Shown here one piece after another: positions 26,913 to 62,286 of a DNA stretch of 64,000 nt (its first letter is position 1; each line of letters begins with the position of its first letter). The stretch is from Paenibacillus mendelii (GTDB lineage Bacteria > Bacillota > Bacilli > Paenibacillales > Paenibacillaceae): the NCBI RefSeq assembly GCF_024498075.1, contig NZ_JANHOF010000002.1:354431-418430 (forward strand), given 5' to 3'. Below the pieces are notes generated by a model. That model did no database searches. It worked only from the letters and a program-made list of their open reading frames with translations, and had not been told where the DNA came from. A program made the translations under genes and the position numbers.

Positions 26913-27212
26913 TTATAAGGATGCAGCCATAAGCGCGGCCGTCCCGAACGAAGCAGCTGGAGAGGAAGCGGGTTCATTGCAGCAGTTACCGGACTGCTTC
27001 AATCTCGACAGATGGACGACAGCACTCTGTTCCAGTCCACCCGCCTCATCCGATGGATGGAGTGCAGATTCAGCCGAAACAGTTTCGTTGCAAGTCAGGC
27101 AGCAGCCGAGCGGATGAACCATCCGATAAAAACCGGTTCGAAACACAACATGCGCATGCTCGTGATCCATTAATTTCCCACAGCCTACACAACAAAATTG
27201 TTCCTTCTGCAT
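26913..27212 (-). CDS. Small cysteine-rich (zinc-ribbon-like) protein
   Basis: A 99-residue protein not recognised as a named family. Residues 5-45 carry FCCVGCGKLM, HEHAH and PLGCCLTCNE, that is two CxxC pairs suited to bind one zinc, with a less ordered tail that has two more adjacent Cys. AAAGGAGAG lies 9 bases before the ATG at 27212, so an upstream frame extension is ignored. A good sigma-A promoter (27297-27325) and a pair of the window's palindromic boxes (27241-27285) stand upstream, suggesting control by the same regulator as the LCP and lasso genes. Confidence 0.7.
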   Translation of the reverse strand: MQKEQFCCVGCGKLMDHEHAHVVFRTGFYRMVHPLGCCLTCNETVSAESALHPSDEAGGLEQSAVVHLSRLKQSGNCCNEPASSPAASFGTAALMAASL

Positions 27213-27240
27213 GATCGACCTCTCCTTTAGATCCTTTTTT

Positions 27241-27325
27241 TCTACTATATGTATCAAAATCATTAATTATGTTACATTACGTATCTAATTAATTTAAGAT
27301 TATGACAAATATCGAGTATTGTCAA
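27241..27325 (-). promoter_or_regulatory. Promoter with paired palindromic boxes (zinc-ribbon gene)
   Basis: On the minus strand TTGACA (27320-27325), 17 bases, TAATCT (27297-27302). Just downstream are GATACGTAATGTAAC (27271-27285) and GATACATATAGTAGA (27241-27255), spaced 30 bases start to start. Both resemble the 15-bp palindrome GATACATTTTGTATC. Boxes downstream of the start would suit repression. The rest of the 27213-27578 gap shows no gene. Confidence 0.6.
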
Positions 27326-27578: not shown

Positions 27579-28034
27579 TCAGCTCATGGCATCCAGCTTC
27601 AAACCGACTTGTGTATGCGTATCCGATAGTTCACGGTACATCGCATGAATCCTGTCATAATTAGGACTCATCTTCTTCAGCTTCTCGTTAAGTGCTTGAA
27701 CGATGGCTGCCTGAAGTCGGTGATCCGGAAGAAATGAACAGCCGTATACATATAAGTTCTCTTCCTGCCGCCTCCATACGACATGACCGATAATGCTGAA
27801 CTCCCACTCGCCAAACGCAATGAGCACTCGAATCGAATAATCCCTGCTGACGGGAAACCGCAGATTCGCAGCAAACTGCAAGCCAGACGGGCTCATATTG
27901 TTCAATAGGATGGGAGTATCCTTGGAGTCCACATTACGATCGAATACACGAAATATAGAAACCTTCGCTTGAACCCCGTCTCGCAAACGTATCCGTACAT
28001 GCTTGCGAGAGATCTGCTTCTGCTTATCGTTCAA
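27579..28034 (-). CDS. PilZ-domain protein
   Basis: A 151-residue protein that is mainly one PilZ domain. The c-di-GMP motifs are RKHVR at residues 10-14 (RxxxR) and NMSPSGLQF near 46 (D/NxSxxG). A helical C-terminus of about 50 residues (ALNEKLKKMSPNYDRIHAMY) follows. It is the second PilZ protein of the window. Unlike the first, it is not preceded by a riboswitch but by two GATAC-type palindromes (28081-28095, 28174-28188). Its target is unknown. Confidence 0.85.
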   Translation of the reverse strand: MNDKQKQISRKHVRIRLRDGVQAKVSIFRVFDRNVDSKDTPILLNNMSPSGLQFAANLRFPVSRDYSIRVLIAFGEWEFSIIGHVVWRRQEENLYVYGCSFLPDHRLQAAIVQALNEKLKKMSPNYDRIHAMYRELSDTHTQVGLKLDAMS

Positions 28035-28080: not shown

Positions 28081-28195
28081 GATACAATTCGTATCTATAT
28101 AGCCACAAAATAATAAACGAATCCTAGTAACATCGGTTTACCAACGAAAATGATTCGCATAACTTTAATTTATGATACATTTCGTAACATGTCAA
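28081..28195 (-). promoter_or_regulatory. Promoter and two palindromic boxes before the second PilZ gene
   Basis: On the minus strand TTGACA (28190-28195), 17 bases, TAAATT (28167-28172). The box GTTACGAAATGTATC (28174-28188) fills the spacer. A second, perfect box GATACGAATTGTATC (28081-28095) lies 93 bases further on, about three times the 31-base spacing seen elsewhere. Confidence 0.6.
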
Positions 28196-28764: not shown

Positions 28765-29727
28765 TTATGTACGGTTGGCCGTCGTCAAATGATCTTTAAT
28801 CATATTGTGAATGCGGGTACGCTCGGCATCACTGACAATGTAATACCAGATTCCGTTGATCATCTTTCCGCTTCCTTCAATCTCCACGGTATCGATCCTG
28901 CCAATGGCCGGGCGATAGTCCATTACGAACGTCTTCATTTCCTCGAATGTAATGTCGGTTTTTACGCTGTCTCCTACCTCACCCAGCAAATCGTGGATAC
29001 GGGTCACATTCGAGATATTCATCGCACTCTTCATTACTTCTTGCAGGATAGCGCGCTGTCTGGCATTGCGGCCATGATCGCCCTTCGGATCCTCGTAGCG
29101 CATACGGGAGTATAGAAGCGCTTCGGAGCCGCTCAAGCTCAGCTTGCCTTGCTTGAATTCATGTCCTGAATAATAGAAAGCAAAGGGGTTGTCAACCTTG
29201 ACCCCTCCGATCAAATCGATCAGACGGGCGAAGCCTTCCATATTCACCTTGATGTAATAATCGATCGGATAATCTAAGAAGTTTTCCACCGTCTGAAGGG
29301 ACATTTCCACGCCGCCGAAAGCATACGCGTGGTTGATTTTGTCCACCGTGCCATGCCCAATGATTTCCGTTCTCGAATCGCGGGGAATGTTAAACATCAG
29401 GATCGATTTCTTAGCCGGATTGACGGTAAGCACAATCATTGTATCGGAACGCCCACGGTCATTCGGACGCTGGTCGACACCCAATACGAGGACATTGAAG
29501 GGTTCACGGTTATCAAGCACGACGGCCTGCTCCGGGTTTGTCTTTTTCTTCGACTTCACTTGAGGGTCGCGGCTAATATAAACCGGTTTAACAGGCGGTT
29601 CGTACATCTGCGCTGCCGTCTTCTCCACAGAGTGGTACATATACCAGACATAGCCGCCCGATAATACAAGAATCGCTGCAATTACGGCGCTGGACCAGAT
29701 GAGAACTTTCTTTACAGGACGCTTCAT
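28765..29727 (-). CDS. LCP (LytR-CpsA-Psr) family glycopolymer transferase
   Basis: A 320-residue protein with one N-terminal membrane helix (about 8-30) and an LCP domain from about 75 to 230. Conserved parts are VLVLGVDQRPNDRGRSDTMI near residue 79, NIPRDSRTEI near 113 and RMRYEDPKGDHGRNARQRAI near 209, containing the Arg and Asp residues that bind pyrophosphate and metal. LCP enzymes attach teichoic acid or capsule-type polymers to peptidoglycan. The promoter carries the paired GATAC boxes around a TATAAT, identical in layout to those of the lasso genes, so surface glycopolymer attachment may be co-regulated. Confidence 0.92.
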   Translation of the reverse strand: MKRPVKKVLIWSSAVIAAILVLSGGYVWYMYHSVEKTAAQMYEPPVKPVYISRDPQVKSKKKTNPEQAVVLDNREPFNVLVLGVDQRPNDRGRSDTMIVLTVNPAKKSILMFNIPRDSRTEIIGHGTVDKINHAYAFGGVEMSLQTVENFLDYPIDYYIKVNMEGFARLIDLIGGVKVDNPFAFYYSGHEFKQGKLSLSGSEALLYSRMRYEDPKGDHGRNARQRAILQEVMKSAMNISNVTRIHDLLGEVGDSVKTDITFEEMKTFVMDYRPAIGRIDTVEIEGSGKMINGIWYYIVSDAERTRIHNMIKDHLTTANRT

Positions 29728-29773: not shown

Positions 29774-29820
29774 GATACATTTTGTGTCTATTATACTTTA
29801 TTATAGATACATTTTGTATC
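29774..29820 (-). promoter_or_regulatory. Paired-palindrome promoter of the LCP gene
   Basis: Minus strand: box A GATACAAAATGTATC (29806-29820), 10 bases, TATAAT (29790-29795), one base, box B GACACAAAATGTATC (29774-29788). Box A is a perfect palindrome in its arms and covers the -35 position; box B covers the expected start of transcription. Confidence 0.7.
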
Positions 29821-29885
29821 ATTATGGTGAAAAAAAAGCGCTTCATGGGCTCTCACGCTTCTTTCCATTTACGCGCCTTCACTAC

Positions 29886-30737
29886 TCATCTATCCTTATA
29901 TTCCTTCATAAAATCGGCCAATGCCGCTTTCCAATTCCGCATGGGTGGAAATCCGTTACGTTCCAGCGCTTTGTGCGCCAACACGGAGTATGACGGACGC
30001 TTGGCAGGACGCGGAAATTGATCTGTCGGCACCGGCTGAACATCTATTGTCAGCTCTCCAAGCTCAAAGATCGATTGGGCGAATTCATACCAGGAGCAGC
30101 TTCCGGAATTGGATATATGATAGGTTCCGTAGCTGTCCGTCCGAATCAGCGCCACGATACATTCCGCCAAATCAACCGTATAGGTTGGACACCCCACTTG
30201 GTCGTTCACAACGGAGATAGCATCACATTCCTGAGCCAGCTTCAGCATCGTTCTCACGAAATTATGGCCATGCTTGCCGTAAAGCCACGACGTTCGAACG
30301 TTAAAAAATCGCGAATGAAGCTGCTGCACAAGCTGTTCGCCCGCAAGCTTCGACTTTCCGTAGACATTCACCGGGGAGGTCGTCATAAACTCATCATATG
30401 GCTCAGAGCCGGCTCCGTCAAAGACATAGTCTGTGCTGACATAAACCAGCTTAGCGCCGATCCTCTCGGCGATAACGGCTATATTTCTCGCACCATAAGC
30501 ATTGATTCGATAGGCTTCGTCCACCTCGGATTCAGCTAAATCCACCTTTGTATAGGCAGCCGTATGGATGATAGCATCAAACTGCGATGAACCCAGCTGT
30601 TGATGGACTCGATCGCTGTTCGAGACATCCAGCTGCTCGCGTCCGAAGGCCGTCACTTCGCAGCCTCTATCCCGGAGGCAATCGACCATATCCGTACCCA
30701 ATTGCCCGCCTGCCCCCGTAACGGCGACCTTCATCAT
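29886..30737 (-). CDS. rfbD: dTDP-4-dehydrorhamnose reductase
   Basis: A 283-residue reductase for the last step of dTDP-L-rhamnose synthesis. The NAD(P)-binding GAGGQLGTDM is at residues 8-17, YVSTDYVFDG near 98 holds the catalytic Ser/Thr, and YGKSKLAGEQ near 124 the Tyr/Lys pair. It starts 15 bases after rfbC. No rfbA or rfbB is present here, so the pathway must be completed elsewhere. Confidence 0.93.
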   Translation of the reverse strand: MMKVAVTGAGGQLGTDMVDCLRDRGCEVTAFGREQLDVSNSDRVHQQLGSSQFDAIIHTAAYTKVDLAESEVDEAYRINAYGARNIAVIAERIGAKLVYVSTDYVFDGAGSEPYDEFMTTSPVNVYGKSKLAGEQLVQQLHSRFFNVRTSWLYGKHGHNFVRTMLKLAQECDAISVVNDQVGCPTYTVDLAECIVALIRTDSYGTYHISNSGSCSWYEFAQSIFELGELTIDVQPVPTDQFPRPAKRPSYSVLAHKALERNGFPPMRNWKAALADFMKEYKDR

Positions 30738-30752
30738 GATCCCTCCCTGCTG

Positions 30753-31298
30753 CTAGAAGTTATTTTCGGCATCCTGAAGAGATGGGTGAAGCTTATCTTT
30801 CTCCGACAAAACAAGATCGGAAGCCGGCCATACGATTCCAAGCTCGGGGTCCGACCAAAGTATGCCGCGGTCATGTGCCTTGGAATAATACTGATCCACT
30901 TTATAGAATACGTGCGTATTCGCCGTTAATGTGCAAAAGCCGTGTGCGAATCCTTTGGGCACGAGCAGTTTGCGATTATTGGACTCGCTTAGGATAACTC
31001 CGGTCCACCGGCCATAAGTAGCCGAGCCTTGTCGAATATCGACGACGACGTCGTATATAGCGCCTGTAATGGCCTGTACGAGCTTCGTCTGGGCCATGGG
31101 TTCAAGCTGATAATGGAGGCCGCGAAGCGTGCCCGCCACGGACGAGAAGGAATGATTCTCCTGAATGAAGCTGTTGTTGATTCCCGCTTCCTCGAACCGT
31201 GCTTGATTATAACTTTCCGTAAAGTAACCCCGATTGTCACCGAAGACATCTGTCTCCAACATGATGACGCCTTCCAACTCGGTTTTTATGATTTTCAT
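30753..31298 (-). CDS. rfbC: dTDP-4-dehydrorhamnose 3,5-epimerase
   Basis: A 181-residue cupin enzyme. Typical parts are FGDNRGYFTESYNQ near residue 19, QENHSFSSVAGTLRGLHYQ near 46 with the catalytic His, and VPKGFAHGFCTL near 113. It precedes rfbD. Rhamnose supplied by the pair could go into exopolysaccharide or, speculatively, onto the peptide made next door. Confidence 0.94.
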   Translation of the reverse strand: MKIIKTELEGVIMLETDVFGDNRGYFTESYNQARFEEAGINNSFIQENHSFSSVAGTLRGLHYQLEPMAQTKLVQAITGAIYDVVVDIRQGSATYGRWTGVILSESNNRKLLVPKGFAHGFCTLTANTHVFYKVDQYYSKAHDRGILWSDPELGIVWPASDLVLSEKDKLHPSLQDAENNF

Positions 31299-31337
31299 AG
31301 AAGGGACCCCCTTGCAATCAGTCAGTTTCGGATCTTG

Positions 31338-31502
31338 TTATGTATATGCGTCCTGTTCCTGATTGTTGAAGAGCAGCCATATAATATCCGGTACAGCTTG
31401 AATCGTAATTGGGATTACGGAAGAGGGCAATCCAAAAATATTCGGTAAAAATGGCGGGGGAGGACTGGGGATAATCGGAGGTAGGGTTTGGAGTTGGAGC
31501 AT
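31338..31502 (-). CDS. Small proline-rich protein between lasso precursor and rfbC
   Basis: A 54-residue frame not assigned to a family. It begins MLQLQTLPPIIPSPPPPFLP and ends in a hydrophobic segment (VPDIIWLLFNNQEQ) rich in Pro, Ile and Leu with no Lys. AAGGA lies 5 bases before the ATG. It follows the hairpin after the lasso precursor and precedes rfbC. The unusual composition could also be chance. Confidence 0.45.
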   Translation of the reverse strand: MLQLQTLPPIIPSPPPPFLPNIFGLPSSVIPITIQAVPDIIWLLFNNQEQDAYT

Positions 31503-31531
31503 GAATTCCTTGATTGCCGGGTATGGAAATA

Positions 31532-31576
31532 GATCGAGACCCCTATACAGGTAATCCTTGTATAGGGGTCTCGATC
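31532..31576 (-). terminator. Perfect 18-bp inverted repeat after lasso precursor 1
   Basis: Arms GATCGAGACCCCTATACA and its exact complement around a 9-base loop, 28 bases after the precursor stop. No clear T run follows on the minus strand, so it may protect the upstream mRNA or partly terminate. The CCCCTATAC core recurs in the hairpin after precursor 2. Confidence 0.75.
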
Positions 31577-31604
31577 TTGTGATACACGCATGACGTATGG
31601 ATGA

Positions 31605-31742
31605 TTAGGAAATAGGAGGCGTGTCTGTAACGTCCAGATCACTCACAGTTACCGAATCAACGTACTTCGTCCCTTTACCTTCCATCGTCTTGCTGACTTC
31701 AAGGATTTGCAGCTCCGGTTGTTTCCACTCTTGTTTAGACAT
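31605..31742 (-). CDS. Lasso peptide precursor A1 (paeninodin family)
   Basis: A 45-residue precursor too short for routine gene calling. The leader MSKQEWKQPELQILEVSKTM carries the Firmicutes pattern (aromatic, x2, Pro, x, Leu, x2, Leu) that B1/B2 proteins recognise, ending in Thr-Met as in paeninodin. The core would be residues 21-45: Glu-Gly-Lys-Gly-Thr-Lys-Tyr-Val-Asp, then a 16-residue tail ending DTPPIS. Asp29 is the only acidic residue at ring distance. It gives a 9-residue ring if the core starts at Glu21, or an 8-residue ring from Gly22. The C-terminal Ser is the expected phosphorylation site of the kinase at 36452. AAAGGAGGTGATAGT precedes the ATG, 35 bases after the cyclase. Confidence 0.88.
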   Translation of the reverse strand: MSKQEWKQPELQILEVSKTMEGKGTKYVDSVTVSDLDVTDTPPIS

Positions 31743-31776
31743 ACTATCACCTCCTTTCAATGCAATTCCACTAGAA

Positions 31777-33720
31777 TCATGCAGGCTGGATCGTTCTCAT
31801 AAACCGATAGACGATGACACATCGCATCAGAAATCTCGTTTCCGGATCAAACGCATTCTCGGGACGGGGCATCCCCCCAAGCTGAGTCATGGTCGTCCGG
31901 ATTTGATCGATATTCAATATTTCATTCATGATGGGATCCTGACAAAGCTGCTCAAGCTCTTGATGAAATGCAGGCCACATGGGCAGAAGCCGATGAATCC
32001 AATCCGCTCCCTGAATGCCGCGCACACGCTGGTTCAGCCTAACGTTATCCGGCAGGTAGCCTTTCGTCGATTGTCTAATAAGCGCTCGATCCATCCCCTG
32101 CCCGACATACTGCTCAACCGGCACGGACAAGCAGAACCCGACGACCCTCGGATCGCAGGTCGGATCCCGTTCCCATATGGAATATTTCAAGGACAGCTTC
32201 GTACTCTTGGTTCCTCTCATATTGGCAATGATCAGGCTCTGCAGGTGATTGCTTCTGGCCTCCAGGAAGTCTTTTCTCAAAAAACCGCTAATTCGGCTGT
32301 CCTGCTCCTGCAGCTTGTTGAATACATCCGTTTTCTTAGCAAAATCCGGATGAATCATGCGCGGTATGTCCGCCTCATCGTTAATCAACGACTTCTCCGG
32401 AGCGGACGAGAATGCTTGTCTCCCAATCACCTTCAGCAGAAAGGATGGGCTTACTCCCCGTTGTTTGCTGAAGAGCATGAGCTCACGATACAACCGAAAC
32501 CATTTCATTTTTTTCATGAGCGATCCGTAATAGTGAGAGGCCGGCCCCCATGATATCGTTTGATTGCCCCTTGCACCGGTTAACAGGATCTTCACGTCCT
32601 GCTGTTTGGCCACATCAAAAATCCCTCTGATCCAGAACGTATTCTCAAAATACTTATAGGGCATTTCCAGCAGCTCCAGCCAATCATCGACTTCGGATAA
32701 CGGGCTCGTTCCAGGGAAATCCAACAGATTCCCCTTGATGTTACCAGCATATTGGATGGTATCCTGGATGTAGGGCGTCTCATCTGCAACGCGTCCTCTT
32801 GCCGTCCAGTCCTCGAAATCATGAACGGGCACATAGCTGTAGGTATGTAATGGTTTGCCTTCTTCCCTGAGCCGGCTTGCTGCGAAGCTCGCGATTGTCC
32901 CTGAATCGAGCCCTCCGCTTAGCGTCGCCCCCACTTGCTTATGTGTTCGGAGCCTCGAATCCACGGCTTGCTGCACAACATCCCGGAAGGCCTCCTCATA
33001 TTCCGAACGAGATTTCAATTTCAGCTGCGCTCTAGGTGCCAAGGAACCATATTGAATAAGTGAGAAGTGTCCGTCTTTGATCGTAAAGCTGTGCGCAGGA
33101 GGAATCTGCTTGATATGTTTATAGACGGTGGAGTTCGTATTGGCGGATTCTACCATAACCGGTATGGTCAGGAATTCCGCCAGCCACAGCTCGTTGATCT
33201 CTCTCTTGACATCATGTATATGAAACAGAGGATCGATCGCCGTACAGAAAGCAAACTGCCGCCGATTATAGTGATAATAAAGCGTCCGGTTCCCATATAA
33301 ATCCCGCGCTCCGAATAATAGGCGCCTATTCTCATCCCAGATGACAAAGGTGTAATCACCGATTAAGTATTGAGGGGAGGCTTCTCCCCACTTCTGATAC
33401 GCCAGCAGAATAAGCTCGCTATCGGACATAAGCTTTCTCTCGGAGTACGCCACCTGAAGCCGATCGAATAGCTCGTTTCGATTATCGATAATCGCATCTG
33501 CCGTAATAGCCAGCTTGAGATCATAATTATAATAGGGCAGCTGCTCATTCACCGATTCAGGCGTGATCCACTGGGCATGACAGCCCAAGAATACAGATCC
33601 GCTGTTCCACGTTTGGATATCATCGGCCGGATACTTTTGCAGGGCTTGCATGACTTGGTCCCGAAGCTCAACTGATATGGGCGCTTGGTCAAAATGAATG
33701 ATGCCGGTTATCGCGCTCAT
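31777..33720 (-). CDS. Lasso peptide cyclase C (asparagine-synthetase-like)
   Basis: A 647-residue enzyme that would adenylate the ring Asp with ATP and join it to the core N-terminus. It has an N-terminal Ntn-hydrolase-like half (1-210) in which the glutaminase Cys2 is replaced by Ser, as expected for a lasso cyclase using no glutamine. The C-terminal synthetase half carries the PP-loop LSGGLDSG (267-274). Its promoter lies in the 152-base gap after the exporter, with paired GATAC boxes. It is followed at once by precursor A1, so C and A form a separately controlled unit. Confidence 0.92.
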   Translation of the reverse strand: MSAITGIIHFDQAPISVELRDQVMQALQKYPADDIQTWNSGSVFLGCHAQWITPESVNEQLPYYNYDLKLAITADAIIDNRNELFDRLQVAYSERKLMSDSELILLAYQKWGEASPQYLIGDYTFVIWDENRRLLFGARDLYGNRTLYYHYNRRQFAFCTAIDPLFHIHDVKREINELWLAEFLTIPVMVESANTNSTVYKHIKQIPPAHSFTIKDGHFSLIQYGSLAPRAQLKLKSRSEYEEAFRDVVQQAVDSRLRTHKQVGATLSGGLDSGTIASFAASRLREEGKPLHTYSYVPVHDFEDWTARGRVADETPYIQDTIQYAGNIKGNLLDFPGTSPLSEVDDWLELLEMPYKYFENTFWIRGIFDVAKQQDVKILLTGARGNQTISWGPASHYYGSLMKKMKWFRLYRELMLFSKQRGVSPSFLLKVIGRQAFSSAPEKSLINDEADIPRMIHPDFAKKTDVFNKLQEQDSRISGFLRKDFLEARSNHLQSLIIANMRGTKSTKLSLKYSIWERDPTCDPRVVGFCLSVPVEQYVGQGMDRALIRQSTKGYLPDNVRLNQRVRGIQGADWIHRLLPMWPAFHQELEQLCQDPIMNEILNIDQIRTTMTQLGGMPRPENAFDPETRFLMRCVIVYRFMRTIQPA

Positions 33721-33781
33721 GTCTTCCTCCTATTAGGCCACACGGAAATAACTAGATTAAGCATCTTAATGTTATTGTTCA

Positions 33782-33826
33782 GATACAGTTAGTAATAATT
33801 ATAACATTAATGATACTATTTGTATC
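33782..33826 (-). promoter_or_regulatory. Paired-palindrome promoter of lasso cyclase and precursor
   Basis: Minus strand: box A GATACAAATAGTATC (33812-33826), 8 bases, TATAAT (33798-33803), one base, box B ATTACTAACTGTATC (33782-33796). GATACA inside box A stands 17 bases upstream of TATAAT, at the -35 position. Confidence 0.7.
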
Positions 33827-33872
33827 ATTAATCCGAAATTTTTTTGAAGTATATACTATTACTTCTATTAGC

Positions 33873-35675
33873 CTATCCGTTCGCACCAGCCTGATAAGCC
33901 AACAACTTGTTGAACGTTCCCCGCGTTTCTTTCAATAACTGCTGATAGCCCCCGCTTTGAATAATTTCCCCTCGCTCCATGACAATGACTTGATCGGCAT
34001 TGCGAATCGTTGATAGACGGTGGGCGATGACTATGACCGTCATACTCCCCTTCAATCGCTCCAGCGTTCTCTGTATCTTCGCTTCATTCTCCGTATCCAA
34101 TGCGCTGGTCGCTTCATCTAATACGAGAATCGACGGCTTGCGCAAAATCGCCCTTGCCAATACGATCCGCTGCCGTTCACCGCCGGAGAGCCGAATTCCC
34201 CGATCCCCGATTATCGTGTCTAGCCCTTGTGGAAGGGTGCGCACAAACTCAGCAGAGGCCGATTGCTCCAATGCCTCCCAGAGCTGCTCCTCGCTAGCAT
34301 GGGGTTCCACCATCATCATGTTTTCCCTAATGCTAGTGTTGAATAGAAACGGATCCTGCGAAACATAACTGATCGAATGTCTTAAGGCTAGTATCTTTTC
34401 TCTCGTCAGCGGTCTGCCATCGATAAGGACTTCCCCTTGCTCGGGCAGGATCAGTCCCATCAGCATATCAATCAAGGTGCTCTTGCCGGCACCGGATTTG
34501 CCAACGATCGCCGTCATCCCGTTAGCCGGTATGCGAAGATCAATGCCTTGAAGCGCATAAGCAGACTGATCGGAGCTGTAACGGAAATGCACATTACGGC
34601 ATTCAATTCCTTCAACAACACGAATCGCCGCTTCTTTACTGCCATCTGCAGGAAGCTCCTGCTCCCTTGCTTCTTCACATTCCCTCTGCATGGTCAATAA
34701 ACTGTTAAAAGCGGGAATTGTTGTCGTGATTTGCTCCAAGCTGTTCTGTATCCCTGTGAATCTGGGCCATAACCGCGCAAAGATGATAATGATGAGCATC
34801 AACTGCTCCGGCCGTACAACAAATACATTCAACGATAAGAAAACGAATAATACGATCAGAACAGCCGCAGTCGTACTGTAAAAAAACTGAGTCGTTGACT
34901 GGAGTTTGGTCAATTGGATGATATTCAATTCCATACGTGAGCATAACGAACGGAACCAGGACATATGAGACTGCTCCAACCGATTGCTCTTAATATCCTT
35001 GATACCGCTAAATTGCTCGGTAATCCCTGCAAAGTATTTTTGAGAAAGATCTGTTGTACGATCCCCCAATGTCTTCGCATTCTTAATGAATCTGCGCGAG
35101 AATATCGCGAGCAATGCGCCGCTTATAATGACAAGCAGAGTCAGCTTAGCGGAGATCCAGAAAGCAAAGCTGAGCTGAACGATGGTAAATACAAGCGATG
35201 TCGCTAAACGCAAGAACAGATGCGTACCTTGACTGACGCGCGCCAGTTCGGACGTAAGAATATGATTAAAGTCGGACTTTCTCTTGGTCAGATAGAACTG
35301 CCAATTAGCCTGCAATAAGGCCTGATACGTATCGAGCCTCAAATATCGGATGAAGCCCTGCTGCATCTTGATGTTCATAATGGCTTGATTGCGCTGCAGA
35401 AATGCTTGCCCTACGATAAGGAAGATATAACCAGCAAGCACAATCGGCACATTATACTGGTCTGGGATTTGGTTAAGCTTGCTTATAAGACCGGATATGT
35501 AGGGGATTGCTGCATCGCTAACTTGGAACACGCCGATGAGGCTCAGCATCGGAATTAATAAGTAAATTCCGATTCCCTCTAGAAAGCTGATGGCAATCAT
35601 GCCCGCTAGAGTTATATAGAGCTTTGCACCTGCAAAGGTGTGAAGCTTCTTTAAGTAGAAGATAATTTGCGTCAT
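33873..35675 (-). CDS. Lasso peptide ABC exporter D
   Basis: A 600-residue fused exporter: six membrane helices (about 1-310) and a nucleotide-binding domain with Walker A GKSGAGKST (392-400), signature LSGGERQR (496-503) and Walker B ILVLDEATSALD (about 515-526). It matches the D protein of paeninodin-type loci, which exports the mature peptide and gives immunity. It starts 14 bases after the nucleotidyltransferase relic. The last 65 residues are very close to the partial exporter at the right window edge. Confidence 0.92.
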   Translation of the reverse strand: MTQIIFYLKKLHTFAGAKLYITLAGMIAISFLEGIGIYLLIPMLSLIGVFQVSDAAIPYISGLISKLNQIPDQYNVPIVLAGYIFLIVGQAFLQRNQAIMNIKMQQGFIRYLRLDTYQALLQANWQFYLTKRKSDFNHILTSELARVSQGTHLFLRLATSLVFTIVQLSFAFWISAKLTLLVIISGALLAIFSRRFIKNAKTLGDRTTDLSQKYFAGITEQFSGIKDIKSNRLEQSHMSWFRSLCSRMELNIIQLTKLQSTTQFFYSTTAAVLIVLFVFLSLNVFVVRPEQLMLIIIIFARLWPRFTGIQNSLEQITTTIPAFNSLLTMQRECEEAREQELPADGSKEAAIRVVEGIECRNVHFRYSSDQSAYALQGIDLRIPANGMTAIVGKSGAGKSTLIDMLMGLILPEQGEVLIDGRPLTREKILALRHSISYVSQDPFLFNTSIRENMMMVEPHASEEQLWEALEQSASAEFVRTLPQGLDTIIGDRGIRLSGGERQRIVLARAILRKPSILVLDEATSALDTENEAKIQRTLERLKGSMTVIVIAHRLSTIRNADQVIVMERGEIIQSGGYQQLLKETRGTFNKLLAYQAGANG

Positions 35676-35688
35676 TATTGTTCTCCCC

Positions 35689-35975
35689 CTACGAATTTAC
35701 CTGATGCTTCATACGCCGCCAGAACCAAAGGAAAGGCCGTAGTGGAAAATACAAAAAATATAGTGATTTTGGCAATGGCAATAACGCAGCATCCAGCGAG
35801 CTTGGATATAGCCGGCCGGTAAAATACCTCCACCTTTGATGATTAGACATAATGGAAAATAGATACCCTTTGTAATGTGTATTTACGTCCTTGCTTGAAC
35901 TTCCTTATCAATCCCCATCAGCCGAATCAATAGCATTGGAAACGTGCTCATTACTTGATTGAACTCGTTATCCAT
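35689..35975 (-). pseudogene. Relic of a lasso-associated nucleotidyltransferase gene
   Basis: An ATG at 35975 overlaps the B2 stop (ATGGATAA) and begins a 30-codon frame, MDNEFNQVMSTFPMLLIRLM and so on, ending at a TAA near 35885. In another frame, codons 35689-35850 encode a 53-residue stretch with RWRYFTGRLYPSS, ALLPLPKSLYFLY and FPLRPFLWFWRR. This resembles the C-terminus of the nucleotidyltransferases found in phosphorylating lasso loci such as pseudomycoidin. I read this as a gene that lost its middle and frame. Alternatives are two unrelated small proteins. The slot where a B1 gene might be expected holds no PqqD-like sequence. Confidence 0.5.
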
Positions 35976-36447
35976 GGCTTGTGCTCCCTTGAACCCCTTT
36001 GGAAGGAATGATCTTGCCGAATGTAGCGACTACCGTAAACATATTTTTCTCATCGGCGCCGGTAAGATAGATATGGGCGCTTCTTAGCCAGGCATGCGCG
36101 ATCATTTTGCCCGAAGCATCTCTAGTCACGCCCATATACAGGGTAGAATCGATCCCGCGTCTCTCTAGCATCTTCATAGCGGCAATCGCCGTCACAAGGC
36201 ACTTGCTTTCCCACCAGGTGCGACGGCTTGCCATGTGAATGGCTCGAGAGATTTCAAGTAAGACGGTCTGATTGATACGATCACGATTATAGGAGCTTTC
36301 CTCCATCTTGATCCCTAATGACGGCGCTACCCTTGAGAAGGGTAAGGCTTTCAATACTCTCGCCCAAGCTAAGTAGATGAAAGCCTCCAGCACCAACTTC
36401 TTCATATGCGGTTTCATGGCAAGGAATATCCTTATTCTCGTTCGCAA
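35968..36447 (-). CDS. Lasso leader peptidase B2 (transglutaminase-like)
   Basis: A 159-residue cysteine protease of the Transglut_core3 fold that cuts the leader from the precursor. The catalytic Cys is Cys83 (WESKCLVTAIAA) and the His is His118 (MIAHAWLR), with a following acidic strand. It starts at TTG 36447, 4 bases after the kinase stop, with AAAGGAATT upstream. B2 proteins normally need the small B1 (RRE) protein for leader binding; no B1 gene is seen in this locus. Confidence 0.87.
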   Translation of the reverse strand: MRTRIRIFLAMKPHMKKLVLEAFIYLAWARVLKALPFSRVAPSLGIKMEESSYNRDRINQTVLLEISRAIHMASRRTWWESKCLVTAIAAMKMLERRGIDSTLYMGVTRDASGKMIAHAWLRSAHIYLTGADEKNMFTVVATFGKIIPSKGVQGSTSHG

Positions 36448-36451
36448 GGTT

Positions 36452-37399
36452 CTAATTCCTTTCCTTAGAGAGTACGGGCTGTGATACCATATCCAACATT
36501 CGATTCACAATATCACGTGCAGTAAATCCTGCCCTTGGTCTTACAATCCGGTTAATCTCAACCTGGCGTGCAACGGCGGCAGACGAAGTGAAATGCCATT
36601 GCTCCAGATTCATAAGAGGAATAAGCAGATTTCGATACGTATGATATCTTAGCAGCGGAAATCGCTCCAACCCATGGATAGGTTCGATTTGCACCTCTGC
36701 CTCTGCTCCTGCCATGTCGGCCGTAACCAGTTCGAACACACCGCCAAGTGGAATGGAGTCCGAACAATAGGAGTCTGCAACAGGAATAGCAAATTTATTG
36801 ACCTCTTCATAGAGAGGATGATATCGATCCAGCTCCATACCAAGATGCTCTAAGCTTTCCTGCCACAGCTTCTGCTGAGGATAAGAGGGAACGATAAGAG
36901 GAGCACCCTCAGGCGAAATGGCTACAGGAATGACATCGTCGCTCAGCAGCGTATAGCCTCTGCTCACAAATGCAGCGGCGAACGTCGATTTTCCCGCTCC
37001 GGAATTCCCTACAATCGCGTAAGCCCGACCCTCAATCACAACCGCACTGCCATGAAGAGGCAGCACTCTTCTCTGGAATAATAACGCTCCCATGCAAGTA
37101 CCAAGAAGATACAGCCTTATCTTGTCTGTATCGGCATCTTCAGCTGGAGAGACGCTAATTCGCCGCCCTTCCTCAATGGAAAAGACCGCAACTCCTGGTA
37201 TATCGAGGAAAATCCGTTGATTCTTCACGGCATAATAGGTTTGATGGTAGACAGCATCCACTAAAGCAGCGGATAGGTCCTCGACGACAATTTCAATATC
37301 GGCCTTTCCTTGATCATCAGATGCCCGCACTAATTCCGGTAGTGCGATATCACTTGCAATATGTAATCCGAATGCCCTATATATCGTTGTTGCCCCCAT
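36452..37399 (-). CDS. HPr-kinase-like lasso peptide kinase K
   Basis: A 315-residue protein related to the C-terminal domain of HPr kinase. LPLHGSAVV (113-121), the P-loop GNSGAGKST (131-139) and SDDVIPV (153-159) are visible. In the paeninodin locus the homologue PadeK phosphorylates the C-terminal Ser of the precursor; both precursors in this window end in Ser. It begins 3 bases after the sulfotransferase stop, within one operon. Expected product: phosphoserine at the peptide C-terminus, possibly extended further. Confidence 0.9.
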   Translation of the reverse strand: MGATTIYRAFGLHIASDIALPELVRASDDQGKADIEIVVEDLSAALVDAVYHQTYYAVKNQRIFLDIPGVAVFSIEEGRRISVSPAEDADTDKIRLYLLGTCMGALLFQRRVLPLHGSAVVIEGRAYAIVGNSGAGKSTFAAAFVSRGYTLLSDDVIPVAISPEGAPLIVPSYPQQKLWQESLEHLGMELDRYHPLYEEVNKFAIPVADSYCSDSIPLGGVFELVTADMAGAEAEVQIEPIHGLERFPLLRYHTYRNLLIPLMNLEQWHFTSSAAVARQVEINRIVRPRAGFTARDIVNRMLDMVSQPVLSKERN

Positions 37400-37402
37400 C
37401 CA

Positions 37403-38635
37403 TTATTTATTCAAATATGCAGATGCCCATTGAGAGAGATGATTTCCGAAAGGAATAATCGATTTCACACGTTCTATTTTCCTTTTCGTATGATCCAGCT
37501 TAGACCGCAGCTGCTTCTGCTCGTTATGACTCTTCTCCAGGCGCTTCTCCAGAGCCCGCAGCGTAATTTGCAATTGCAGCACCTGTGGATGGACAGCTTC
37601 ATGATCTGTCGATATTGCTGGCAGGTCAAGCTTGTCATCCGTCAGGCCGCCAGCGGTGGACAATTGATAATTCTCGGTCCACTGGCAGCCAGAAGCCTCC
37701 GCTAATTGCCTGGTTCGCAATTGAAGCAGCTCTTCGTCAGGATTAGCATCAAATCGGACTCCTGTCCAGCGCTCCGCTTCTTCCAATTGTTTGCTGTAAC
37801 CCAGATCATGGAACAGCTTGGAGCCCAGTACCCGGCAGTACATCTCGACCTCTTGCTTGTCGAGCACCTCTCTCCAAATATTCAAAGAGTCCAGATGCGG
37901 TTCCTTGTGCTGCCCCACAAAGGGATCACCGACACCCATGCTGAAATATAAATCAGTCTTGGGGGTATCCATGAAGTCGCCGTACTTCTCAAGTCCATCT
38001 TCATATGTAATCCCTAAGAAGTTACACAGCTTGTGCAGTTCTTCTTGAGGGTTCATGACCATCTTCTCATAATACAATCGATGCGAATGAGGGTTTTCCT
38101 TGGCAAAATAATTGCTATAACGAAGCAGTCCGATCGTAATGTCGGCCATCTTAATATTAAACTTGGGATTCAACAAATCTTCCTTTAATTGAAATCGATC
38201 TCCCACATGTTTATTCACTTTCTTGTACGAAGCAATGACGGCAAGCGGATTTCGAATTAACCATATTCGCTTAGACTGCGGGAACAGCGCATCTAGAAAT
38301 TCCAAGATATAATAATAGCGTGGAGACTTATCAATGAGCATCTCCGCCCCCGCACTGCTCTGCAAAAGTTCGTTATAAGCCTGAAGAGCGAATGCCCTGC
38401 ATGCACGGTTGTATGTATCATTCGGTAACACACCGTTGAAAAATTGCTTAACGATTTCTTTACCGCCATACGGTCTTTGCGGTGCCAGATGTAAGTCGTA
38501 TAAACTCATCAGAAACCACATTTCCTGCGTAGCGAATATTTTACTATGATTTTGCAGCATAACCGTTGCCAGCGAACTTCCGCTTCGAGGAGTGCTGAGC
38601 AGGAATATGAGATTATTGCCTTTCGAATCAATCAA
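37403..38635 (-). CDS. Sulfotransferase-family protein of the lasso locus
   Basis: A 410-residue protein. The 5'-phosphosulfate-binding loop is FLLSTPRSGSS (residues 11-21) and the 3'-phosphate site is KRIWLIRNPLAVIASY (near 130), so it should use PAPS. Residues 350-395 form a coiled coil with many Leu, Lys and Glu. The start is TTG 38635, since AGGGGGG lies six bases upstream. It is first in the operon with kinase, B2 and exporter, behind a paired-palindrome promoter. The target may be a Tyr, Ser or Thr of the peptide, or a surface sugar; sulfated lasso peptides are not something I can confirm from sequence. Confidence 0.83.
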   Translation of the reverse strand: MIDSKGNNLIFLLSTPRSGSSLATVMLQNHSKIFATQEMWFLMSLYDLHLAPQRPYGGKEIVKQFFNGVLPNDTYNRACRAFALQAYNELLQSSAGAEMLIDKSPRYYYILEFLDALFPQSKRIWLIRNPLAVIASYKKVNKHVGDRFQLKEDLLNPKFNIKMADITIGLLRYSNYFAKENPHSHRLYYEKMVMNPQEELHKLCNFLGITYEDGLEKYGDFMDTPKTDLYFSMGVGDPFVGQHKEPHLDSLNIWREVLDKQEVEMYCRVLGSKLFHDLGYSKQLEEAERWTGVRFDANPDEELLQLRTRQLAEASGCQWTENYQLSTAGGLTDDKLDLPAISTDHEAVHPQVLQLQITLRALEKRLEKSHNEQKQLRSKLDHTKRKIERVKSIIPFGNHLSQWASAYLNK

Positions 38636-38669
38636 CGTGAACCCCCCTAAGCCAGCCAACATTATAATA

Positions 38670-38714
38670 GTTACGATATGTAGCAATTATAGCATATAAA
38701 ATCCGTTTTGTATC
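38670..38714 (-). promoter_or_regulatory. Paired-palindrome promoter of the sulfotransferase-kinase operon
   Basis: Minus strand: box A GATACAAAACGGATT (38700-38714), 8 bases, TATAAT (38686-38691), one base, box B GCTACATATCGTAAC (38670-38684). The boxes are weaker than elsewhere, but spacing is identical to the cyclase promoter, with GATACA 17 bases before TATAAT. Confidence 0.65.
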
Positions 38715-38728
38715 TTTTTCCAACAACT

Positions 38729-39271
38729 TTATAATGAATTTCTTGAATGGTTCCAAGTGAATTGAATCGCGACCACCATTAAACAAACTACGACTCCTAA
38801 GCATGCTCCGGTTATATCGATGTAAACGTCATATAGCGAGGATGTCCGCTGCGAAGTTTGGGACTGGTTCCATTCATCCGCAATCGCAACAGCCGCCGCT
38901 ATTACGATCGGCAGCAGAGAACTTACCCATAATCGCCTACTAAACTTATTGATCATCACAAAGGCAATAACCGCCAAGCTTGCATACATGAACAAATGAG
39001 CGCTTTTTCTAAATATAAATTCAATGAACCGGTAAGGATCATGCTGAGAGGAATACACATTCTGAAGATAGATAAACTTGACATCGGGAAGCACGCTTCG
39101 GATCCAATTCACATCTAATTGTTGCTCCAGATAGGGAATGATGCTTTGTTCCTCGTAGGATTGTGAGGATAACAGAAAAATCAACACTCCCCATACCAAA
39201 AACAATAGAATAAACCAATATCCTTTATGTACTCGTTTCGGTTTTGGCTTGACCATGTGAACCTGATTCAC
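38729..39271 (-). CDS. VanZ-like membrane protein at the head of the lasso locus
   Basis: A 180-residue protein with four to five helices and the VanZ pattern: FLLSSQS near residue 32, FRKSAHLFMY near 84, ADEWNQSQTSQR near 130 and DVYIDITGACLG near 147. The start is taken as GTG 39271, because GGAGGA lies 10 bases upstream and because an in-frame ATG at 39322 overlaps the TATAAT of the predicted promoter. It may protect the envelope of the producer, but that is a guess. Confidence 0.8.
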   Translation of the reverse strand: MNQVHMVKPKPKRVHKGYWFILLFLVWGVLIFLLSSQSYEEQSIIPYLEQQLDVNWIRSVLPDVKFIYLQNVYSSQHDPYRFIEFIFRKSAHLFMYASLAVIAFVMINKFSRRLWVSSLLPIVIAAAVAIADEWNQSQTSQRTSSLYDVYIDITGACLGVVVCLMVVAIQFTWNHSRNSL

Positions 39272-39304
39272 CTCGTTATAATCCTCCGATATTCCGTAAT
39301 TAGT

Positions 39305-39350
39305 GATACGTTTAGTATCCATTATAATTCAATTCGATACATTTCGCATC
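39305..39350 (-). promoter_or_regulatory. Paired-palindrome promoter of the VanZ-like gene
   Basis: Minus strand: box A GATGCGAAATGTATC (39336-39350), 9 bases, TATAAT (39321-39326), one base, box B GATACTAAACGTATC (39305-39319). Box B has perfect arms. The same bracket layout occurs at 29.8, 33.8 and 38.7 kb. Confidence 0.7.
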
Positions 39351-49280: not shown

Positions 49281-49451
49281 TTGCAAATCACCCCTCATGA
49301 TGTCGTTTTCATCGATGTGCTGCTAAGCTTAGTTCTACGATATTGGTTGTATACAAGCTTCTATATTTTATATATTCTCATAATATGGCTTTGATTGTAC
49401 TGAATACGCTTACATTGGAAATTGGTAAAAAAGGGTTCCTGCGGACGATTC

Positions 49452-61012: not shown

Positions 61013-61960
61013 TCATTCTCTTCTTAAAGATCCGCTCAACCTTACACCTCTCCTTGCTTTCAGATGATGAATGAATTTTATCGGCACGAGCGCAAGCAGA
61101 GCGTATTTTGCTTTAAGCAGGCCGCTTGTCCGGCTGTTGGCGATTTTCCGCAAGGCGCCCATCTTGTCTCCCAGCAAAATGTAGGTTTGAATTTCGGATA
61201 TATCTTGTGCTATTAACACCTCTCTTTGATCTGATAGATCTAGCGTTCTAATATGGCTGGATATGACCTCTCGGGTACTATAGAGCATCTTCATGCTTCG
61301 ACCGCCGCTTGTATTATGTTCGCCGTAAAAACGTCTGATATAGGCAGGTGATTCGCAGTATGAGGCCTCGTAATGATCGGCTATTCGCAGCCAGTAGTCA
61401 TAATCTTCCGCCAGCCTTATCTTGGTATTGAACAACCCGACGCGAGTGACGGCCTCCCTCTTGATCACGACCGTTGAAGTTCCGATAAAGTTCAAGAGAA
61501 GCAGTTCTTTCTTTATTCGACCTTTATAAAAACGTTTGATGACGGGGTATTCGTCATACTCGTTATTCTTCTGATAGACCCGGTTAATATACTGTCCGTA
61601 AACGAGACCCACTTGGCTGTTCCGTTGAAACTCGATCACCTGATGTTTAAGCTTGTCTTGGAGCCACAGGTCGTCGGAATCCAGAAAAGCGATAACATCG
61701 CCGGTTGCGCGAAGCATCCCCGTGTTTCTTGCAGCTGACGGACCGCCGTTCTGTTGTTTGATGTAGATGAGGGTGTCAAGCCGGTGCTCCGTCCGATAAG
61801 CCTCGATGACTTGTTCCGTCCGGTCCATGGAGCCGTCATCGACCACTATGACTTCATAGATCTGATAACAGGGATCGGGAGCTTGATTATAGACGCTTTG
61901 AATCGCCTCAATAACCAGGCTCTCGTTGTTATAGCTCGGTATTACGACTGAGACTTTCAT
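61013..61960 (-). CDS. Family 2 glycosyltransferase
   Basis: A 315-residue GT-A enzyme. The N-terminal VSVVIPSYNNE, the nucleotide-binding EVIVVDDGSMDRTEQV near 40, the DXD-type AFLDSDDLWLQDKL near 91 and AEDYDYWLRIADHY near 185 are clear. It should transfer a sugar to a growing exopolysaccharide or glycolipid. Upstream lies a pair of palindromic boxes (62022-62070). Confidence 0.9.
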   Translation of the reverse strand: MKVSVVIPSYNNESLVIEAIQSVYNQAPDPCYQIYEVIVVDDGSMDRTEQVIEAYRTEHRLDTLIYIKQQNGGPSAARNTGMLRATGDVIAFLDSDDLWLQDKLKHQVIEFQRNSQVGLVYGQYINRVYQKNNEYDEYPVIKRFYKGRIKKELLLLNFIGTSTVVIKREAVTRVGLFNTKIRLAEDYDYWLRIADHYEASYCESPAYIRRFYGEHNTSGGRSMKMLYSTREVISSHIRTLDLSDQREVLIAQDISEIQTYILLGDKMGALRKIANSRTSGLLKAKYALLALVPIKFIHHLKARRGVRLSGSLRRE

Positions 61961-62021: not shown

Positions 62022-62070
62022 GATACAATTAGTATCATATCATCTAAGATTATATGTTACATTTTGTATC
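62022..62070. promoter_or_regulatory. Paired palindromic boxes between glycosyltransferase and beta-helix gene 2
   Basis: GATACAATTAGTATC (62022-62036, perfect arms) and GTTACATTTTGTATC (62056-62070), 34 bases apart, in the 326-base divergent gap. A TATAAT (minus strand, 62049-62054) lies between them, but not at the spacing seen at the four bracketed promoters, so either direction is possible. A further half-site GTATC ends at 62169. Confidence 0.55.
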
Positions 62071-62286
62071 TAGTCAATCCGGTCTCTATCGCGTTCGAGG
62101 TGATTCATTACTTTGACAAGTATATTTATCTGATATTTCGATTTTACAAAGATATACATCTATTGTATCTTTTATGTGTTGTTATATTATTCATAAAAGT
62201 AATGGATATTTTATGAATTGGGAGGTGAAATTGAATTGTTTATGGATTTTTTAACAAAATCTCTATAAAAGTTGGAGGATACTATC

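Follow-up and report, generated by a model that had tools for sequence, protein, structure and literature searches.

Paired Xre-type palindromes at exopolysaccharide, PilZ, and lasso-peptide promoters point to a probable chromosomal XRE-family repressor in Paenibacillus mendelii and its relatives

Paired palindromes at four promoters

Paired 15-bp palindromic boxes were analyzed in a 64,000-nucleotide stretch of the Paenibacillus mendelii genome (the window; C2:354431-418430 of assembly G000, which holds 8.13 Mb in 79 contigs). The boxes are probably operators of a chromosomal XRE-family repressor with the recognition type of Xre, the PBSX repressor of Bacillus subtilis. This repressor is most probably P0001, the product of a gene (hereafter xre) that stands beside an exopolysaccharide operon. 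Two dimers would bind at each promoter, and the genes concerned would be repressed jointly.

Upstream of an LCP gene, a lasso cyclase gene, a sulfotransferase gene, and a VanZ-family gene, all on the minus strand, a first box is followed by 8–10 bases, TATAAT, one base, and a second box (Table 1). The bracket described in the original prediction, which was made from the letters of the window alone and gave a box spacing of 30–32 bp, is therefore present at all four promoters. The gap between the first box and TATAAT is 10 bases at the LCP gene, 8 at the cyclase and sulfotransferase genes, and 9 at the VanZ gene, with start-to-start box distances of 32, 30, 30, and 31 bp, respectively. At the LCP, cyclase, and VanZ genes, one box of each pair matches GATAC/GTATC perfectly in its arms, and each sulfotransferase box has two mismatches. 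A consensus scan for −35/−10 promoters listed none at any of the four brackets, and at the cyclase and sulfotransferase genes the first half-site, GATACA, sits 17 bp from a TG-extended TATAAT, so that the upstream box can fairly be said to cover the −35 region, as had been proposed. The LCP gene of a relative (G020, L264) likewise retains a pair with a 32-bp spacing, and degenerate forms near-identical to the sulfotransferase upstream box recur at L215, L220, and L227.

Box pairs exceed chance expectation

A position weight matrix (PWM) was trained on 143 boxes that precede xre orthologues in 80 named loci from genomes other than G000, with at most one mismatch to GATAC/GTATC admitted. The loci are the best 80 of 242 and are titled Paenibacillus, Cohnella, Thermobacillus, and a few others; both Cohnella and Thermobacillus belong to the Paenibacillaceae. 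At a threshold of at least 8 bits per box, with a pair defined as two boxes 26–40 bp apart, the window gave 19 matches and 6 pairs versus a mean of 1.6 matches in 20 dinucleotide-preserving shuffles, not one of which had a pair. Box pairs are thus not equally frequent in shuffled sequence, a comparison that had been proposed with the original prediction. No pairs were found with the same matrix in five 20-kb stretches from other contigs, each chosen earlier for holding one box or an HTH_3 gene. The six pairs of the window are the four brackets together with 27241/27271 and 62022/62056; beyond these, single boxes lie at 28081 and 28174, and a further pair lies outside the window, between xre and the exopolysaccharide operon.

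Across G000, 14 perfect GATACN5GTATC boxes were found versus ∼7.8 expected at equal base frequencies, and 6 of the 14 fall within 62 kb of contig C2 (C2:382511 to 444770). With one mismatch allowed, there were 273 boxes versus 160 for the reversed control. The genome-wide two-box scan suggested with the original prediction was less clean. Five of the seven matches to a degenerate two-box pattern are true sites on C2 (384–445 kb) and two are unrelated sites on C4, and the reversed control gave four matches; the degenerate sulfotransferase pair escaped the pattern. The paired boxes look like a local regulon rather than a genome-wide repeat.

It is scarcely credible that the pairs are a product of chance or a structural element of DNA or RNA, and not operators. 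The eight perfect single boxes outside C2 occur at about the chance rate, as such an explanation would have it. In the 80 loci, five control palindromes gave 6–83 boxes and no pairs versus 318 boxes for the real motif, whose pair spacings peak at 30–31 and 34–35 bp; these controls and the shuffles rule out a chance origin of the pairs. Against a structural element stand the boxes within −35/−10 spacers, which lie outside the transcript of the promoter concerned. One of the eight boxes outside C2 belongs to a second XRE gene (P0002, below), and of the other seven, five lie inside called open reading frames (ORFs) and two between genes. One of these two, an isolated box (L014, G000:C28:12153, GATACAATTTGTATC), stands 107 bp before a polysaccharide-deacetylase gene (Pfam) and may mark a distant regulon member.

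The candidate regulator

There are 28 HTH_3 matches in G000, and only those of P0001 and P0002 have a box, at one mismatch or fewer, within 400 bp upstream. P0001 is a 122-residue XRE/HTH_3 protein encoded on the plus strand at C2:444921-445286, 26.5 kb beyond the right end of the window, and matches HTH_3 (PF01381) with 62.9 bits (cut-off 23). Boxes lie at −165 and −130 of its start. The gene is divergent from a Wzz-type chain-length gene (PF02706) and a ParA/AAA-type ATPase gene, the latter presumably CpsD-like, which form the start of the exopolysaccharide (eps) operon.

Orthologues of P0001, 76–95% identical, were found in all 22 genus genomes searched. All 22 have at least one box (one mismatch or fewer) within 330 bp upstream of xre, and 19 have a pair 35–36 bp apart with no more than two mismatches in the pair. 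In the 80 named loci, a box occurs within 350 bp upstream of xre in 74, compared with 74 of 3655 control windows drawn from the same loci, and a box pair in 52, compared with 16 of the 3655. In 15 aligned orthologues, the segment around the recognition helix, GI[ST]RA[AS]LSHYEKNRR, varies only at the bracketed positions, and it is almost invariant in an alignment of 23 as well. In the 80 loci, xre is recurrently flanked by glutamate synthase (Pfam) and, across from it, by PilZ or exopolysaccharide genes, PilZ relatives being a common divergent neighbor; given these neighbors, P0001 looks like a chromosomal regulator. Judged by its neighborhood, with no integrase search made, P0001 is not among prophage or mobile-element genes.

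P0002, the second XRE protein, has 108 residues (G000:C4:457759-458082, L192). Its gene has a single perfect box at −91 and is flanked by a squalene-hopene-cyclase-like gene and one for a sensor histidine kinase. Another XRE relative, 50% identical over 76 residues, was noted 24 kb from xre in G003 (L083, G003:C1:3491584-3491811); it too has a box pair upstream (−297/−261).

Relation to known regulators and operators

A passage of PMC4243335, the one paper that a literature search for the motif letters turned up, quotes GATACATTTTGTATC as the consensus for PBSX Xre, and the plus strand of the window box at 29806 is identical to it letter for letter. The operator is thus one already quoted for a known regulator, and an XRE gene with a like pair lies in the same region, so the original statement that no known regulator has this operator did not hold. 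The consensus reportedly goes back to McDonnell and McConnell in 1994. PBSX Xre has the XRE-family fold and several boxes at its autoregulated promoter, and P0001 likewise has operators of the GATACATTTTGTATC type in its own promoter. P0001 differs in that its gene stands between glutamate synthase and exopolysaccharide or pilZ genes and not among prophage genes, in that its putative targets are matrix, surface, and lasso genes, and in that the boxes are paired and set on the core promoter. When P0001 and P0002 were compared with phage proteins, all matches were below 60% identity, with no PBSX record among the matches listed. Operators of the BlaI/CopY type (TACANNTGTA) were set aside because their spacing is one base different and there is direct evidence for XRE, and an extracytoplasmic function or other alternative-sigma promoter was set aside on consideration alone.

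The best-matching solved structure for the helix-turn-helix domain of P0001 is the DNA-binding domain of ImmR of ICEBs1 (7t8i, E 9.5e-13), its nearest solved relative. ImmR differs in that it represses a mobile element, and its repression is relieved by the ImmA protease; no ImmA occurs among the xre neighbor clusters listed, although no search aimed at ImmA was made. ImmR is presented as an autoregulated XRE immunity repressor in PMC12565409, which catalogues palindromes bound by XRE proteins before their own genes, the arrangement seen at P0001, in 223 motif clusters. Because the main text of that source is without motif letters, the present motif may be among its clusters; “Paenibacillus” and “exopolysaccharide” are absent from the main text, in which “lasso” was not searched. 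P0001 would also resemble SinR/SlrR, the biofilm matrix regulators of B. subtilis, as an XRE-type regulator of an exopolysaccharide operon, with its putative operators on the eps promoter. SinR belongs to the XRE family, and its operator, GTTCTYT, is unlike the present boxes. No chain named SinR was found among the 12 PDB sequences matched by P0001 at E ≤ 0.001, a direct comparison not having been made. SinR is described as a negative regulator of epsA-O in passages of PMC7911366 that treat it only as a B. subtilis regulator; “XRE” is absent from the main text of this source.

What appears to be new is the use of this already known kind of regulator at exopolysaccharide, PilZ, and lasso genes in the Paenibacillaceae, together with two promoter layouts. 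A literature search for an Xre regulator or regulon in this family gave no description among the matches listed, which were titles and abstract starts of mostly open literature.

Two promoter layouts

Box-pair spacings in the 80 loci show two peaks, at 30–31 and 34–35 bp, of which 34–35 bp is the commonest in relatives. The proposal that the boxes lie three turns apart on one helical face fits the four brackets, but the prevalence of the longer spacing shows that exact phasing by three turns is no general rule. In the first layout (style A), a box fills the 17-bp spacer between −35 and −10, usually with a second box 34–37 bp downstream. The eps promoter (TTGACA-TGTTACGATCTGTATCG-TAAAGT) and the glycosyltransferase promoter at 62 kb of the window (TTGACT-17-TATAAT) are of this style, as is that of pilZ (TTGACA-17-TAAATT, 28195-28167), the second box of which is 93 bp away. 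Of 634 box orientations in the 80 loci, 81 have a TTGACA-like hexamer whose first base is 7 bases before the box, compared with a mean of ∼6 per offset. Style A is kept even in G016, where xre is 17 kb away and the eps promoter yet retains both boxes.

Style B is the bracket seen at promoters of the lasso/LCP/VanZ type. Its TATAAT-one base-box geometry is not enriched around the boxes of the 80 loci (8 at offset −7, mean 8.7 per offset) and so is special to the bracket promoters. Judged by eye, seven of the eight xre-linked sulfotransferase copies (two in G000, including that of the window, and six in other genomes) have a −10-like hexamer (TATAAT, TATACT, or TACAAT), one base, and the second box, in a count in which some boxes score below 8 bits and L217 is without a recognizable first box. 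In the eighth, from a second lasso cluster of G000, no base separates the −10-like hexamer from the second box.

Four promoters without a listed −35 element might be read as targets of an activator or dual regulator, in keeping with the consensus scan and with the general observation that weak promoters often need help. We consider this improbable. The boxes cover the −35 region and the start site and are not placed upstream of −35; at eps, pilZ, and the glycosyltransferase gene they lie inside the spacer of good −35 promoters; at several Cohnella lasso loci they directly follow a complete TTGACA-17-TAAATT promoter; and two bracket promoters have a TG-extended −10.

Boxed genes and their linkage to xre

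Genes were counted as linked when within 100 kb of xre, and sulfotransferase boxes were counted at 12 bits or more. Among the sulfotransferase copies of the genus (19 of 19 matches examined), seven of eight linked copies are boxed versus none of 11 unlinked copies (Fisher 1.6e-4). The unboxed linked copy is that of the window itself, whose stronger box (14.6 bits) falls inside the ORF as called from TTG. In the 80 named loci, a box lies within 200 bp before 26 of 32 PilZ relatives, most of which are divergent from xre and share its boxes, and before 6 of 7 Cohnella lasso cyclases beside xre. A small Cys-rich ORF of the window has relatives in 11 of these loci, and 4 of them are boxed. Of the seven Cohnella cyclase loci, four have a pair 28–31 bp apart; in the other three there are two boxes separated by 108 bp, a single box, and no box, respectively. 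We infer that control of eps, xre, and pilZ is the old core, to which control of lasso, LCP, and VanZ genes was added in some lineages.

Several observations weigh against P0001 as the joint repressor. For the cyclase, 4 of 11 linked copies are boxed versus 2 of 19 unlinked (p = 0.16; 30 of 47 matches examined); for LCP genes, the figures are 7 of 18 and 0 of 2 (20 of 20 examined), and none of 32 LCP homologues in the 80 loci has a box within 200 bp before it. At 8 bits or more per box, the second lasso cluster of G000 has a single box and no pair. Among the 11 unlinked sulfotransferase copies, one assembly (G006) supplies two that are near-identical, and the 80 named loci overlap with the 22 genus genomes. 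In these 22 genomes the pair pattern gave 90 matches and the reversed control 52, and in 8 of them the pattern did not exceed its control; it is therefore noisy and alone is no clean test in the genus. Finally, the promoter of the P0002 gene carries a perfect box in all 22 genomes searched, and P0002 may recognize the same sites.

It is conceivable, although we think it rather unlikely, that the brackets are occupied by P0002, or by P0001 and P0002 sharing an operator alphabet and cross-regulating each other. The half-sites are the same for both proteins, and the perfect box of the P0002 orthologues stands at −83 to −101 of their own starts. The gene for P0002, however, lies on a different contig and is preceded by just one box, in contrast to the pairs at the brackets and at the xre/eps promoter. 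Its sites mostly have the center ACTTT (13 of 21), which no bracket box has. The window box scores lean to P0001-type sites or are neutral, in a comparison biased by P0002 sites being perfect only and P0001 sites being allowed one mismatch. P0002 could still cross-act on the same sites.

With P0001 as the probable repressor, one dimer would sit over the −35/spacer region of each promoter and one over the start region, presumably cooperatively, and their occupancy would exclude RNA polymerase. A protein bound at these placements would hinder polymerase, which supports repression without proving it. The original picture of a dimer bound twice, most simply a repressor, fits the boxes found. What the sequence shows is the boxes, their pairing and conservation, their place on the core promoter, and their linkage to xre; the binding, the start sites, and the sign of regulation are predictions from it. 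P0001 would repress its own divergent promoter region, shared with the exopolysaccharide operon, as well as pilZ, and in G000 probably also the LCP, VanZ, and glycosyltransferase genes and two lasso-peptide clusters. Some signal would inactivate the repressor and release matrix and lasso production together. If so, a phage-type operator alphabet would serve a conserved chromosomal regulon, and lasso-peptide clusters and exopolysaccharides of Paenibacillus and Cohnella would have a testable regulator.

A small ORF convergent to xre

A conserved 45-residue ORF with a core like VELDVLTILEQLGIDRARWP lies convergent to xre (L018:1925-2062; G000:C2:445363-445500, minus strand). The 80 named loci and L018 were scanned along their whole length with a strict motif, which gave 21 matches in 20 of the 81 loci, all of them in the 1 kb that follows the xre start. 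With a looser motif, applied to the region behind xre alone, it was found in 25 of the 81. By profile, it lies 0–1.5 kb downstream of xre and convergent to it in 21 of 22 genus genomes; some of these matches are weak, with E values up to 0.0025, and three more were found elsewhere. The exception is G016, where it stands beside the eps operon. G000 has another match, a weak one, at C2:445681-445767 (E 0.0015). Differences at the three codon positions number 861/423/1689 in the 20-codon core of 18 small ORFs, as in a coding gene, and four of the small ORFs had no Pfam match at E ≤ 1.

The core of the small ORF weakly resembles residues ∼66–90 of the repressor (hhalign probability 4%, E 0.0097), and in a shuffling test of small ORF against repressor, 11 of 18 related pairs gave P < 0.05 (mean z 2.2). 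That it acts as an anti-repressor is a guess, although its place next to xre would suit the counterpart of the small antagonist protein that is encoded alongside SinR/SlrR. A broader proposal, which we hold to be doubtful, is that in the Paenibacillaceae a SinR-like Xre switch with PBSX-type operators joins exopolysaccharide, PilZ, surface proteins, and lasso peptides and is released by a convergent microprotein of 45–60 residues (core LEIDIRKILEQLGIxxxxWP) that imitates a C-terminal segment of the repressor (LDxxVRxFVDQLELSD). Removing the small repressor gene, or expressing the adjoining small ORF, might switch on lasso and exopolysaccharide production.

Genes and other boxes of the window

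Boxes and genes are collected in Table 1. The TTG start of the sulfotransferase gene as called falls at the TATAAT, and its true start should therefore be further downstream; the called ATG of the VanZ gene overlaps the TATAAT, so its true start is probably further downstream as well. The lasso precursor candidate is assigned by its position and by features of lasso precursors.

Table 1. Boxes, promoter elements, and genes of the window (window coordinates)
Feature	Position	Strand	Basis or remark
LCP upstream Xre-type box GATACAAAATGTATC	29806..29820	-	plus strand = quoted PBSX Xre consensus
LCP promoter TATAAT	29790..29795	-	consensus match only
LCP downstream box GACACAAAATGTATC	29774..29788	-	pattern + PWM
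Lasso cyclase upstream box GATACAAATAGTATC	33812..33826	-	pattern + PWM
Lasso cyclase TATAAT, TG-extended, 17 bp after GATACA	33798..33803	-	
Lasso cyclase downstream box ATTACTAACTGTATC	33782..33796	-	PWM, weak, 10.2 bits
Sulfotransferase upstream box GATACAAAACGGATT	38700..38714	-	PWM, weak, 8.9 bits
Sulfotransferase TATAAT, TG-extended	38686..38691	-	
Sulfotransferase downstream box GCTACATATCGTAAC	38670..38684	-	PWM, 14.6 bits
VanZ upstream box GATGCGAAATGTATC	39336..39350	-	PWM
VanZ promoter TATAAT	39321..39326	-	
VanZ downstream box GATACTAAACGTATC	39305..39319	-	pattern + PWM
pilZ promoter box GTTACGAAATGTATC in 17-bp spacer TTGACA (28190-28195) / TAAATT (28167-28172)	28174..28188	-	
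Second pilZ box, perfect arms, 93 bp from first, between promoter and pilZ	28081..28095	-	
Glycosyltransferase box in 17-bp spacer TTGACT (62072-62077) / TATAAT (62049-62054)	62056..62070	-	
Glycosyltransferase downstream box, 34 bp from first	62022..62036	-	
Box upstream of small Cys-rich ORF	27271..27285	-	PWM
Weaker partner (9.7 bits) of the 27271 box	27241..27255	-	PWM
LCP (LytR_cpsA_psr) gene	28765..29727	-	Pfam PF03816
Lasso cyclase gene (AsnB-like)	31777..33720	-	best NCBIfam match lass_lactam_cya, E 1e-114, below curated cut-off
Lasso precursor candidate, 45 aa, downstream of cyclase	31605..31742	-	translation; position
ABC exporter gene	33873..35675	-	many ABC families, none above cut-off among the matches listed
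Lasso B2 protein gene	35968..36447	-	NF033537 above cut-off; PF13471
HprK-related kinase-like ORF	36452..37399	-	all matches below cut-off
Sulfotransferase gene	37403..38686	-	PF13469 above cut-off
VanZ-family gene	38729..39322	-	PF04892, NF037970
PilZ-domain gene	27579..28034	-	PF07238
Glycosyltransferase family 2 gene	61013..61960	-	PF00535

The small Cys-rich ORF (CVGCGKLMD...; window 26913-27263), which has the box pair 27241/27271 upstream, belongs to no Pfam family. A second lasso-type cluster (L045:2803-8041; G000:C2 ∼421.2–426.4 kb) lies between the window and the exopolysaccharide operon. It contains Transglut_core3, HprK-like (below cut-off), cyclase, and sulfotransferase genes, the last with a bracket-like arrangement upstream. 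Further cyclases of G000 were found on C1, C2, and C8. A large ORF at window 45144-49298 (1384 residues) has a C-terminal end formed by a run of PVEQ repeats.

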